Shown: one piece after another, positions 52,001-59,688 of the stretch
How positions within the stretch are numbered: the stretch's first letter is position 1
Layout of the letters: each line of letters starts with the position of its first letter
Origin: [Actinomadura] parvosata subsp. kistnae
Lineage (GTDB): Bacteria; Actinomycetota; Actinomycetes; Streptosporangiales; Streptosporangiaceae
DNA length: 64,000 bases
Reading direction: 5' to 3'
Assembly (NCBI RefSeq): GCF_900323885.1
Contig: NZ_OOHJ01000018.1
Coordinates: 2,219,001-2,283,000 of the forward strand
Position numbers and translations under genes: made by a program
Notes under the pieces: model-generated
Databases searched by the model: none
What the model was told of the DNA's origin: nothing
The model's input: the letters and a program-made list of their open reading frames with translations, nothing else

Positions 52001-56028
<4,028 letters not shown>

Positions 56029-56449
56029 GATCCTCGCACCCCCCAACACGCGCTCTGGGGGTCGTCCTGCCGAATCGGGATGGCCACCGACACGCACCGC
56101 CGGTGGTCGACCCGAGTCCCAGGCTACACGACAGAGGTTTGACGATGTAATTTTCTTGGGAAAATGACCGATTTTTCGGACAATCCTGAATCTTTCCCCT
56201 GGATCACTTCTGTCATGAGTCGTCAGGCCCGGCGGGCGCGCGGCAGTGGACGCCTTGCCATGGATCTCCCGACCACCGCCCACCCCGCGCCGGCCGATGC
56301 CAAAAAGCACGAAATATCCGCTTATTGTGCGAGGCGCGTAATGGCGTTTTGTCGCAATAGAAGAGAGAAAAGTACGCAGACAAGACAACTGCGTACAGGT
56401 CGGCGCTCATGCCCCCGGACGCCGCGCGAAACGGGAGCGCTGATATGCC
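56029..56449. promoter_or_regulatory. 421-base divergent non-coding region with an inverted repeat
   Basis: Markedly more AT-rich than its surroundings, especially 56140-56180 and 56330-56380. It holds promoters for the STAS gene (left) and NlpC/P60 gene (right). A perfect 8-bp inverted repeat, GTACGCAG (56372-56379) and CTGCGTAC (56389-56396), lies about 55 bases before the NlpC/P60 start and could be an operator or leader hairpin. I see no gene and no recognisable c-di-AMP riboswitch. Confidence 0.55.
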
Positions 56450-56986
56450 ATGAACCGAAAAGGGACACGGCAGGTGACGGCCGCGATCTGCGCCATCGTG
56501 TGCGCGATCACGACCACTGTCGCGTCCGCCACCCCTGCCACGGGATCCGCGACCGGAGGCATCGCCCTCAGGGCCGCGCTGGAGATGATCGGAGTGCCCT
56601 ACTCGTGGGGCGGAGGCGGCATCCACGGGCCCGGCTACGGCATCGGGCGGGGCGCCAGGACGAAGGGCTTCGACTGCTCGGGCCTGGCCGAGTACGCCTA
56701 CGCGCGGGCCGGGGTGCTCATCGGCACCACCACCACGGAGCAGTGGCGCTCGGGCATCCGGGTGCCGCAGGAGCTGCTGGAGCCGGGGGACCTGGTCTTC
56801 TTCGACAACGACCGGGCGCGGGCGGGGCCGGAGCACGTGGGGCTGGCCGTGGACGGGCAGCGGATGGTGCACGCGCCGTACACCGGCGCCGTGGTGCGGA
56901 TCGACCCGCTGGACCGGCCGGACCTGCTGGGAGTGGTGCGGCCCGGCTGGGGCCGCGGGGAGGCGGAGGTTGAGGTGGAGGGGTGA
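56450..56986 (+). CDS. secreted NlpC/P60 cell-wall endopeptidase
   Basis: A 178-residue exported protein. Signal peptide about 1-28 (TAAICAIVCAITTTVASA); NlpC/P60 domain about 35-170 with catalytic Cys in KGFDCSGLAEYAYARAG, His in PEHVGLAVDGQ and third polar residue near MVHAPYTGAVV. YSWGGGGIHGPGYG is the substrate-side loop. It would cleave peptide stems of peptidoglycan. No SH3, LysM or coiled-coil domain. The C-terminus is acidic and a tandem repeat begins at the base after the stop. Confidence 0.92.
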   Translation: MNRKGTRQVTAAICAIVCAITTTVASATPATGSATGGIALRAALEMIGVPYSWGGGGIHGPGYGIGRGARTKGFDCSGLAEYAYARAGVLIGTTTTEQWRSGIRVPQELLEPGDLVFFDNDRARAGPEHVGLAVDGQRMVHAPYTGAVVRIDPLDRPDLLGVVRPGWGRGEAEVEVEG

Positions 56987-57076
56987 GCGGGCTTCCTGCC
57001 GCCCCTTCTCGGTTCGGCGGGGTTCCCGCCGCCCGTCATCGGCCGGGCGGGGTTCCTGCCGCCTGCCGTACGTCCC
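56987..57076. repeat. tandem repeat, 30-bp unit, right after a stop codon
   Basis: Three units (56987-57016, 57017-57046, 57047-57076) of the type GCGGGGTTCCTGCCGCCCGT then CATCGGCCGG, beginning at the first base after the NlpC/P60 stop. The third unit decays at its end. Confidence 0.85.
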
Positions 57077-57200
57077 GCGGGCTCTCCTCGACGGATCGCG
57101 CCGGGGGACGTACGGCCACCGAATGCCTTGGTGTGCGGGAAATCCGTACCGTGGTCTCGCGAGTCACCACGGCCGGCTCTCCCGCTCACGCGAGCATGGG

Positions 57201-57503
57201 TTACTCGGACTTGGAGAAACCGTTCTCGATCTCGGTGTCCTTGTTGTGGTCACCGACGGACGGCTGGTTGTTGTTCAGCAGCTGGAGGTCGACCTCGTCG
57301 AGGATGTTGATGATCTCAACCTCGATGTCGTTGGCCGAGTGGTTCAGCACGTCGTTCAGCGCGTCGTCGATGATTTGGAACTGGGACAGCAGGGCCTGGC
57401 CCTTGTTGCTCGGGTTGGGGCCGACGTCGGCGGACGCGGCGGTCGCGGAGAACCCGAGAGCGGCGGCCGCGATAGCGGCACCGGCCAGAATACGACGGAT
57501 CAT
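57201..57503 (-). CDS. small secreted protein, paralogue 1 of 3
   Basis: A 100-residue exported protein with signal peptide MIRRILAGAAIAAAALGFSA, cleaved probably after ASA (about residue 25). The mature part (about 75 residues) is acidic, without Cys, and keeps the pattern shared by the three paralogues: DVGPN, SQFQIIDD, LND/NVLNHSANDIEV, IINILDEV, LLNNNQPSVG, then NKDTEI near the end. I do not recognise a family. Size, export and Asn/Gln-rich core recall structural coat proteins such as rodlins or chaplins, but there is no clear homology. Ribosome site GGAGG about 8 bases upstream. Confidence 0.85.
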   Translation of the reverse strand: MIRRILAGAAIAAAALGFSATAASADVGPNPSNKGQALLSQFQIIDDALNDVLNHSANDIEVEIINILDEVDLQLLNNNQPSVGDHNKDTEIENGFSKSE

Positions 57504-57973
57504 TGTTTGCTTTCCTCCATGGATCGGCGGCGGGAATCCCGGCGCCGGGTTCATTCGTGCAGAGCTGTGAGGTGCCGCTGTCAACGATCGTGGCGGGCAT
57601 CGGAGATAGCAAACTCGAAATGCCCTCATGGAGGTCAAGGAGGCGCTTGGATTCTTTGGCACTGGATTTCGGCGACCGGCGGGGTCGTCGTTGAGTATCG
57701 GTGTCCGTGGATATCGGCGTCCGTGTCACTCACGATTTCCGGCCGGCTTCGCAAAGGCTGGGAAGCGTCTGCCGCACGTCCTCGGGCGACCTTGTGCGGT
57801 CGCGCCGAGGACGTACGGCCCCCGAACGCTTCAGTGCCCCGAAAGCCGCTCCGTGGCCTCGCGAGTCTCCACGATCAAGTTCTTTCGTGCACCTGGGAGA
57901 GAGGAGGGCGGTTGGCCACGCGGCCCGCTTCGGTGCGGTGCCGCCGCGTCTCCTCCGCTTTTCGGCCCGAGGG
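57504..57973. promoter_or_regulatory. conserved upstream region of secreted paralogue 1
   Basis: Of this 470-base gap, about 57504-57665 is the leader/promoter of paralogue 1 and aligns with the matching regions of paralogues 2 and 3, including TTGACCT (minus strand, 57632-57638), 129 bases before the start. The rest (about 57700-57973) is the downstream flank of paralogue 2 and resembles DNA downstream of paralogue 1 (GACGTACGGCC, CGTGG-CTCGCGAGT). No gene is seen. Confidence 0.65.
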
Positions 57974-58276
57974 CTACTCGGCCTTGGCGTGCCCGTTGCT
58001 GATCTCGGTGTCCTTGTTGGCGTCGCCTACCGAGGGCTGGTTGTTGTTCAGCGCCTGGACGTTGACCTCGTCGAGGATGTTGATGATCTCGACCTCGAGG
58101 TCGTTCAGGGTGTGGTTGGCGACGTCGTTCAGGAGATCGTCGATGACCTGGAACTGGCTCAGGATGGCCTGGCCGCCGTTGTACGGGTTGGGGCCGACGT
58201 CGGCGGACGCGGCGGTCGCGGAGAACCCGAATGCGGCGGCCGCGATAGCGGCACCGGCCAGAATACGACGGATCAT
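57974..58276 (-). CDS. small secreted protein, paralogue 2 of 3
   Basis: 100 residues, same length as its neighbours. The signal peptide differs from paralogue 1 by one residue (AAAAFGFSA). The mature part keeps DVGPNPYN, SQFQVIDDLLNDV, LNDLEVEIINILDEV, NNNQPSVGDANKDTEI and a basic/acidic tail HAKAE. Nearly identical leaders in paralogues 2 and 3 show this pair is the most recent duplication. Exported and probably cell-surface or matrix associated; function unknown. Confidence 0.87.
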   Translation of the reverse strand: MIRRILAGAAIAAAAFGFSATAASADVGPNPYNGGQAILSQFQVIDDLLNDVANHTLNDLEVEIINILDEVNVQALNNNQPSVGDANKDTEISNGHAKAE

Positions 58277-58603
58277 GGTTGCTTTCCTCCGTGGATCGGC
58301 GCGGAATTCCGGCGCCATAGTCGTTCGTGCAGGGCTGTGAGGTGCCGCCAATAACAATTGCGGCGGGCGGCGGAGCCCGCAACCCGGAAAGGCCTTATGG
58401 AGGTCAAGAAGCCGCCTCGATTCTTTGGTGTCGGGTTTCACGGCCGGGAAACCGGCAGCGGTGCGACGGGTCCCCGACATCGCGGCGCTTTAGTCTTTCC
58501 ATGGCCTCGCGGATACCACCGCCGGCTCTTTCGCATACGGACGGGCAGGAGGCGGCCGGGTCACGGGGCCCGGCCGCTCCCATCGTCCGTGGACGCCCTG
58601 GAC
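58277..58603. promoter_or_regulatory. conserved upstream region of secreted paralogue 2
   Basis: The first 75 bases (58277-58351) are almost identical to the leader of paralogue 3 and include the ribosome site and a palindrome GGCGCGGAATTCCGGCGCC (58298-58316). TTGACCT (minus strand, 58401-58407) stands 125 bases before the start, as in paralogue 3. The remaining bases to 58603 are the downstream flank of paralogue 3. No gene is seen. Confidence 0.7.
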
Positions 58604-58906
58604 CTACTCCGCGCTGGCGTGGCCGTTCTTGATGTCGGTGTCCTTGTTGTGGTTGCCGACAGTGGGCTGGTTGTTGTTCAGCAGCGGGACGTTGACCTCG
58701 TCCAGGATGTTGATGATCTGGACTTCGATGTCGTTGGCCGAGTGGTTCAGCACGTTGTTCAGCACGTCGTCGAGGATCTGGAACTGGCTGATGACGTCCG
58801 CGCCCTCGTTGCGCACGTTGGGGCCGACGTCGGCGGACGCGGCGGTCGCGGAGAACCCGAAGGCGGCGGCCGCGATAGCGGCACCGGCCAGAATACGACG
58901 GATCAT
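58604..58906 (-). CDS. small secreted protein, paralogue 3 of 3
   Basis: 100 residues, signal peptide identical to that of paralogue 2. Mature part DVGPNVRN, ISQFQILDDVLNNVLNHS, NDIEVQIINILDEV, LLNNNQPTVGNHNKDTDI, tail HASAE. No Cys, net acidic. The three genes have the same orientation, each with its own leader, so they are three transcription units rather than an operon. Unknown function; high expression would fit the strong GGAGG sites. Confidence 0.87.
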   Translation of the reverse strand: MIRRILAGAAIAAAAFGFSATAASADVGPNVRNEGADVISQFQILDDVLNNVLNHSANDIEVQIINILDEVNVPLLNNNQPTVGNHNKDTDIKNGHASAE

Positions 58907-59241
58907 GGTTGCTTTCCTCCGTGGATCGGCGCGGAATTCCGGCGCCATAGTCGTTCGTGCAGGGCTGTGAGGTGCCGCGAATAACCCTCACGGGAAGAGA
59001 CGAAAACCGCAACTCGGAAAGACCTTGGCTAGGTCAAAGTGCCGCCTCTATTTTTTGGCGTCGGCTTTTCCCGGCCCGCCGCGGCACCGCCCTGTACTGG
59101 ACTTCGGCGCTCCGCATTCAACCGGCGTCCGGTCGCCTGGGAACGTCCACGGGGAATTCGTTCACCGCTCGTTGGACAACATTCGACCGGCTCTTTGGGG
59201 ATCCTTCCTGTACCGGTGGAGGAGGCTGCCGGTAACGCTCG
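58907..59241. promoter_or_regulatory. conserved upstream region of secreted paralogue 3
   Basis: Leader and promoter of paralogue 3: the palindrome GGCGCGGAATTCCGGCGCC at 58928-58946 and TTGACCT (minus strand, 59031-59037), 125 bases before the start. The homology with the other two upstream regions fades beyond about 59060. From there to 59241 I see no gene or clear site. Confidence 0.65.
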
Positions 59242-59688
59242 TCACGACTCCTCGGCGAGACGGTCGAGGGCCGCCGAGAGCCGCTGGAGCGCCTCCAGGC
59301 ACCGCCGCGCGTCCTCGACGCCGAGCTCCCCCACCAGCCGGTCGGCGAACTCCTGATGACCGGGGACGATCTTGGCGATGGCCTCGCGCCCCGCCTGCGT
59401 GGGGCTCAGCAGCTTGGCCCGCCGGTGCGCCGGGTTGGGCCGGTACTCGGCCAGCCCCCGCTCCACCAGCAGGTCGGCGATGCGCTGCACGCCCTGCCTG
59501 GTCATCCCCATGACGCGGGCGATGCCCGCGACGGGCAGCGGCTCGCGCAGGACCGCGCCGAGCACCTGCCACCACGCGGCCGTCATCCCCGACGGCCGGG
59601 CCAGCCCCTCCGCCACCTGGAGGAACTGGCCGTTGAGCCGGAAGGCTCTTAACGCCATGCCGGACAACAACTCGGCGCTCTCGCTCAT
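59242..59688 (-). CDS. MarR-family transcriptional regulator
   Basis: A 148-residue regulator; the ATG at 59688 overlaps the stop of the DJ-1-like gene (ATGA). Winged helix about 35-100 (MTAAWWQVLGAVLREPLPVA, GIARVMGMTRQGVQRIADLL, NPAHRRAKLLSPTQAG). It probably binds the large palindrome at 60302-60336 in front of its own operon and so also affects the divergent NERD gene; this is inference from position. Ligand unknown. Confidence 0.92.
   Translation of the reverse strand: MSESAELLSGMALRAFRLNGQFLQVAEGLARPSGMTAAWWQVLGAVLREPLPVAGIARVMGMTRQGVQRIADLLVERGLAEYRPNPAHRRAKLLSPTQAGREAIAKIVPGHQEFADRLVGELGVEDARRCLEALQRLSAALDRLAEES

Follow-up and report, generated by a model that had tools for sequence, protein, structure and literature searches.

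The described proteins that come closest to the family reported here are the rodlins and the chaplins. Rodlins are reported to be essentially limited to streptomycetes (PMC4255298), so Nonomuraea would need another protein of rodlin type. The rodlins RdlA and RdlB of Streptomyces (PMC5314377, PMC4255298) resemble our family in several ways: the proteins are small, with Sec-type export (predicted for our family), their genes are homologous to one another, they are random-coil in solution, and they form a genus-limited paralogue pair. In contrast, mature rodlins are approximately 103-105 aa long and those of our family 49-81 aa, and the latter are strongly acidic. Adjacent genes for homologous secreted proteins are a shared trait: most species have two deep paralogues around an NlpC gene, which recall the RdlA/RdlB pair (PMC5314377), and the window analysed here, a stretch of 64,000 nucleotides, has three copies. 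The NCBIfam search, in which the presence of a rodlin model is unconfirmed, returned nothing rodlin-like.

Chaplins (PF03777) of the same genome are likewise small, secreted, amphipathic and rich in Val, Ile, Asn and Leu, but our proteins lack the Gly-Asn-rich chaplin core and Cys, are highly charged and are not hydrophobic overall. No PF03777 match was obtained by hmmscan at E-values up to 1, hhalign of the family profile against this genome's own chaplins gave a probability of 0.1%, and Cys is absent from the mature part of every short Nonomuraea member at the main locus. Lacking a PF03777 match, a Cys pair and a Gly/Asn-rich hydrophobic core, the family was rejected as a chaplin. The true chaplins of this genome lie approximately 60 and 117 kb away without the family leader, and no promoter in common with them was found. 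A short single-domain chaplin is encoded at 2335990, and a long ORF outside the window (L097, G000:C22:2393269-2394558; 622 codons up to the edge of L097) carries eight chaplin domains in a row; it lies approximately 117 kb downstream of the trio. A SapB/AmfS-type morphogenetic lanthipeptide was also rejected, there being no Cys and no lanthipeptide synthetase among the Pfam domains of the syntenic neighbours.

In Planobispora and related genera (L066-L074), tandem YVYIDDSNHNEVLNDL proteins have in common with our family a near-identical signal peptide (MIRRILAGAAIAG), the arrangement in tandem pairs, a short acidic mature part, an N-VLND motif and a similar RBS context. However, they do not match the mature-domain profile and have another locus and another promoter; homology outside the signal peptide is unproven. 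Four of these loci (L066, L067, L071 and L073) hold tandem pairs of 63-76 aa proteins that have this signal peptide and end in YVYIDDSNHNEVLNDLxDxAxLGIIEN; they make up a further small family without a name.

A family of small, predicted secreted proteins confined to Nonomuraea

The original prediction described three tandem genes for secreted proteins of 100 residues, of unrecognised family, with near-identical signal peptides and a shared core. The trio is real, with all three ORFs on the minus strand at the predicted coordinates (Table 1). The ORFs are beyond chance, since the frame is kept in 55 homologues and almost all orthologue comparisons give a dN/dS below 1. Copies 1-3, the sole family members in this genome, are 76-82% identical in pairwise comparison, and their signal peptides differ at a single residue. 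Equal gene length holds within the window species but not across the genus, where the mature part has 49-81 aa and expanded versions reach 161-188 aa. The core motifs occur as described in the three copies; the SQFQ-IDD segment is not obligate, having been lost in frame from members at a second locus and, in N. candida, from two copies out of three.

Table 1. Genes and 5' elements at the family locus (positions in the window)
Feature	Position	Strand	Details
Family 2 encapsulin shell protein with cyclic-nucleotide-binding domain	52001..53410	+	PF19307, PF00027
Two-domain terpene synthase, geosmin-synthase-like	53469..55751	+	PF19086, two stretches, E 2e-101; syntenic
STAS-domain protein, anti-anti-sigma-like	55669..56388	-	PF13466/PF01740; syntenic; true start possibly shorter
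NlpC/P60 cell-wall hydrolase with signal peptide	56450..56986	+	PF00877, E 8e-21; convergent with copy 1
Copy 1	57201..57503	-	100 aa, predicted secreted; signal peptide aa 1-25, mature DVGPNPSNKGQ...; nearest relatives L003:6772, L004:6001
Leader inverted repeat, copy 1	57526..57546	-	GGCGCCGGGATTCCCGCCGCC, variant of the copies 2/3 palindrome
Conserved leader element, copy 1	57551..57577	-	CGGCACCTCACAGCTCTGCACGAATGA
Promoter region, copy 1	57580..57659	-	CCAAAGAAT - TTGACCT - AGTTTGC - CGTTGAC; variant boxes, spacing as in the others to within 1 bp
Copy 2	57974..58276	-	100 aa; orthologues L003:6001, L004:5228
Leader palindrome, copy 2	58298..58316	-	GGCGCCGGAATTCCGCGCC; arms conserved, loop variable in 34 leaders
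Conserved leader element, copy 2	58321..58347	-	CGGCACCTCACAGCCCTGCACGAACGA
Promoter region, copy 2	58350..58428	-	CCAAAGAAT, start-to-start 21 bp to TTGACCT, 23 bp to GGTTGCG, 28 bp to TGTTATT
Copy 3	58604..58906	-	100 aa; orthologues L003:5413, L004:4587
Leader palindrome, copy 3	58928..58946	-	GGCGCCGGAATTCCGCGCC
Conserved leader element, copy 3	58951..58977	-	
Promoter region, copy 3	58980..59058	-	CCAAAAAAT - TTGACCT - AGTTGCG - GGTTATT
MarR-type regulator	59242..59688	-	PF12802; syntenic

Searches of Pfam, NCBIfam, PHROGs, PADLOC and PDB sequences gave no match above the cut-off, as expected of an unrecognised family; family libraries returned chance-level matches only (e.g. SurE and an apicomplexan domain), and no known enzymatic or regulatory family was found, the kind of identity that the original prediction had set against itself. 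No relatives were detected in viral contigs. An initial scan of bacterial genomes retrieved 30 loci, 29 from Nonomuraea and one from Planobispora. The full profile matched in 48 of 55 Nonomuraea genomes, with weak matches in other genera due mainly to the signal peptide. A profile of the mature domain matched in 47 of the 55 and in none of 284 other Streptosporangiaceae genomes, and a phylum-wide search of 395 genomes yielded nothing convincing, with one partial match of 19.5 bits outside the genome of the window. This is therefore a genus-restricted orphan family. Five near-complete Nonomuraea assemblies (G137, G146, G151, G163 and G174) gave no mature-domain match, so the family seems dispensable. 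We describe a new, previously unlabelled Nonomuraea-specific family whose leader, locus, partner gene and export signal are conserved. The main text of a published transcriptome study on N. gerenzanensis (PMC5431353) does not mention its genes by name. In N. gerenzanensis ATCC 39727 the three orthologues lie at NZ_LT559118.1:408289-409949. PLSDB files this 11.85 Mb replicon as a non-mobilizable plasmid, in a record of only 10 annotated features, none of which covers the three family genes.

The proposed repeated duplication was borne out by the homologous copies and by the tree, in which the window copies group with counterparts from N. sp. PA05 and N. thailandensis (copies 2 and 3 well supported, copy 1 unresolved). 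As N. gerenzanensis has the same three copies, the triplication is older than these species. Direct repeats span the ORF and the 5' leader in all three copies, and a further repeat of 108-112 bp and 75% identity (57060-57171 and 57766-57873) lies 3' of copies 1 and 2, so the duplicated unit reaches beyond the stop codon. Most other species have two deep paralogues, of MIRR and MMRR type, on either side of the NlpC gene.

By inspection, the signal peptide (MIRR-ILAGAAIAAAAFGFSATA-ASA|D) has the basic n-region, hydrophobic h-region and AxA cleavage site of a Sec substrate and is present in all 55 short members, which strongly suggests that the proteins are exported. The mature part of the short members has a pI of 4.0-4.8, no Cys and 9-20% Asn; it is amphipathic and rich in Asn, Asp, Leu and Ile, with a net charge of -9 to -12, a GRAVY of about -0.5 in the window copies (not hydrophobic overall) and a helical hydrophobic moment of up to 0.60 in its first half. 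AF2 with the family alignment gave no confident fold (pLDDT 52), and a single mature relative gave one long low-confidence helix (pLDDT 66); with only such a helix, beta or amyloid structure is not predicted.

A putative developmental locus and its wall hydrolase

Gene order is the same in nearly all species: encapsulin shell/cNMP protein, geosmin-type terpene synthase, STAS protein, NlpC/P60 hydrolase, one to three family genes in most species, MarR regulator, DJ-1/PfpI protein and NERD-kinase. Synteny with the geosmin-type synthase, the encapsulin/cNMP gene and NlpC was found in 24-28 of the 29 Nonomuraea loci. Geosmin is a developmental product of streptomycetes. Family 2 encapsulins have been described as paired with cyclases resembling 2-MIB and geosmin synthases (PMC8346489). 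Several relatives (e.g. L004, L013 and L015) have a second shell gene, 55-60% identical, between the shell and terpene synthase genes, seemingly lost in the window species and in L003.

The cell-wall hydrolase that the original prediction placed beside the trio is a real NlpC/P60 gene, convergent with copy 1, and it adjoins a family gene in 24 of the 29 Nonomuraea loci. Five genomes (G150, G171, G175, G177 and G188) have divergent members at a second site, where these are again convergent with an NlpC/P60 gene and lack the other window neighbours tested. This pairing is the best clue to a role of the family in the cell wall. It could mean that the proteins are small acidic extracellular partners (inhibitor, activator or chaperone) that bind NlpC/P60 in the wall and restrain or place the hydrolase during hyphal or spore maturation, and acidic proteins would suit a basic partner. 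We nevertheless consider such a partnership unlikely: five of the 29 family loci have no NlpC (L014, L024, L026, L027 and L031), two genomes retain the locus with NlpC and have no family gene (G146 and G151), and a tight inhibitor interface would not tolerate the variability of the mature part.

A single-family leader and a fast-evolving mature part

Each copy has its own promoter region and conserved leader, as had been proposed from the window alone: TTGACCT ends 129, 125 and 125 nt before the ATG of copies 1, 2 and 3, and the palindrome described for copies 2 and 3 is replaced by a variant inverted repeat in copy 1. Four boxes stand at fixed distances in leaders of both deep types (44 leaders, those matched by the search pattern), with CCAA(G/A) followed after 21 bp by TTGAC(C/T), after 23 bp (22 in one) by a TTGC box, mostly RGTTGC, and after 28-29 bp by NGTTAT or similar. 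These distances leave 17 bp between TTGACC and RGTTGC, the spacing of a -35/-10 pair, for which the two boxes are candidates. A stretch of approximately 37 nt (CGGCACCTCACAGCCCTGCAcaAACGACTAtGGCG) 3' of the boxes is near-invariant in 34 leaders. A scan that allowed up to three mismatches located its core at 33 sites, all of them in Nonomuraea (28 of the 299 genomes), and at none in 260 other genomes. By coordinate comparison, every site lies approximately 45 nt upstream of a family gene, and the window genome holds the element exactly three times and the leader pattern nowhere else.

Before the RBS, an inverted repeat GGCGC...GCGCC keeps its arms while its loop varies in length; because the arms are invariant, covariation is nearly nil. 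A strong structured leader RNA was not supported despite these arms, as folding energies were no better than those of shuffles (z -1.1 to +0.1) and an Rfam search of the leader returned nothing. The length of the leader ranges from 79 to 82 nt, out of frame, which led us to reject an in-frame extension further upstream (MAPEFRADPRRKAT-M). No BldM site (TCACcCgnncGgGTGA, PMC4125116) was visible by eye in the leader.

Between distant species the leader is 83-96% identical in nucleotides, against 56-68% for the mature coding sequence. The predicted purifying selection on the core held in that orthologue dN/dS is below 1 nearly everywhere, but it is weak: values for the mature part, rough because the genes are short, are 0.32-1.03, against 0.11-0.35 for NlpC, MarR, PfpI and terpene synthase. 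Selection is strongest on the leader, and the mature part evolves fast. Several members have Thr/Ser/Pro-rich insertions or tails (L014, L026, L027 and L031). In G180, a 25-residue repeat array takes the place of most of the mature part, and G142 has the family leader and signal peptide in front of an unrelated mature sequence. One Nonomuraea genome carries the family leader and signal peptide before a 25-residue repeat array at L105:4173-4946 (-) (VSEPAKESAVSATVTPQDL...).

A tightly controlled leader before a fast-changing mature part that confers specificity could denote secreted signals or precursors of signalling peptides, and the conserved signal peptide and the replaced or repeat-filled mature domains of G142 and G180 would agree with this. 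We regard signalling as improbable, however. Neither a processing site nor a C-terminal peptide is conserved, the C-terminus varying from 0 to approximately 20 residues; the neighbouring genes that were scanned included no recognisable linked receptor or transporter; and the retained tandem sister copies would mix signals. Contact-dependent or bacteriocin-like antagonism is very improbable, since fast divergence, duplication and loss of small secreted proteins would fit it but the conserved locus has no immunity gene or dedicated exporter, the proteins are acidic and Cys-free rather than cationic, and PADLOC gave no match.

A candidate surface-protein system of aerial growth

Our main reading, to which we give a probability of roughly 0.45, is that the family consists of developmentally expressed cell-surface or coat proteins that work in the manner of rodlins or chaplins, related to neither. 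Codons of the mature part are closer to ribosomal-protein usage (CAI 0.866 against a background of 0.778 +/- 0.038, p 0.008), and synonymous divergence is unusually low (dS 0.07-0.18 against 0.24-0.47 in neighbour genes); together these suggest that the genes are highly expressed. The syntenic geosmin synthase/encapsulin locus, the ribosomal-type codons and the amphipathic composition would all be consistent with a role in the aerial hypha or spore coat, and we also count in favour of it the Thr/Ser-rich or repeat-expanded versions that follow the same leader in several species. Against it stand the lack of a confident AF2 fold, the high charge, the chaplins of this genome with their separate site and different leader, a whole-gene CAI that was not significant and the apparent dispensability of the family.

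Under the coat-protein reading, the three small, acidic, Cys-free amphipathic proteins, predicted to be Sec-exported and each behind its own highly conserved promoter and leader, would be produced abundantly in aerial growth or sporulation, with the geosmin synthase/encapsulin module and a secreted peptidoglycan hydrolase encoded at the same locus. After export they would be placed on or in the wall of hyphae or spores and may assemble through an amphipathic helix-prone segment (approximately residues 38-60) and a Leu/Ile/Asp/Asn-rich segment. The conserved trait would then be composition and amphipathicity, not exact sequence.

A more far-reaching proposal, which we hold to be rather unlikely, is that Nonomuraea evolved its own surface-protein system in place of rodlins. 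The leader (a rigid four-box promoter and the element of approximately 37 nt, absent elsewhere from these genomes) and the signal peptide would form a fixed cassette for expression and export, behind which mature sequences are swapped through repeats, deletions and unrelated segments, tied to a wall hydrolase and the geosmin/encapsulin developmental locus. What surprises most is that one family has a leader to itself and that mature domains seem to be swapped behind it.

If the surface-protein reading is true, one large antibiotic-producing genus of actinomycetes uses its own surface proteins in aerial growth, unrelated to chaplins and rodlins, which would help to explain how spores are coated in genera other than Streptomyces. 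Since the leader is confined to one family, a factor that binds it should control the family genes only, which makes the leader a clean starting point in the search for a developmental regulator. Through the association with geosmin synthase, encapsulin and wall hydrolase, the timing of expression is directly testable.
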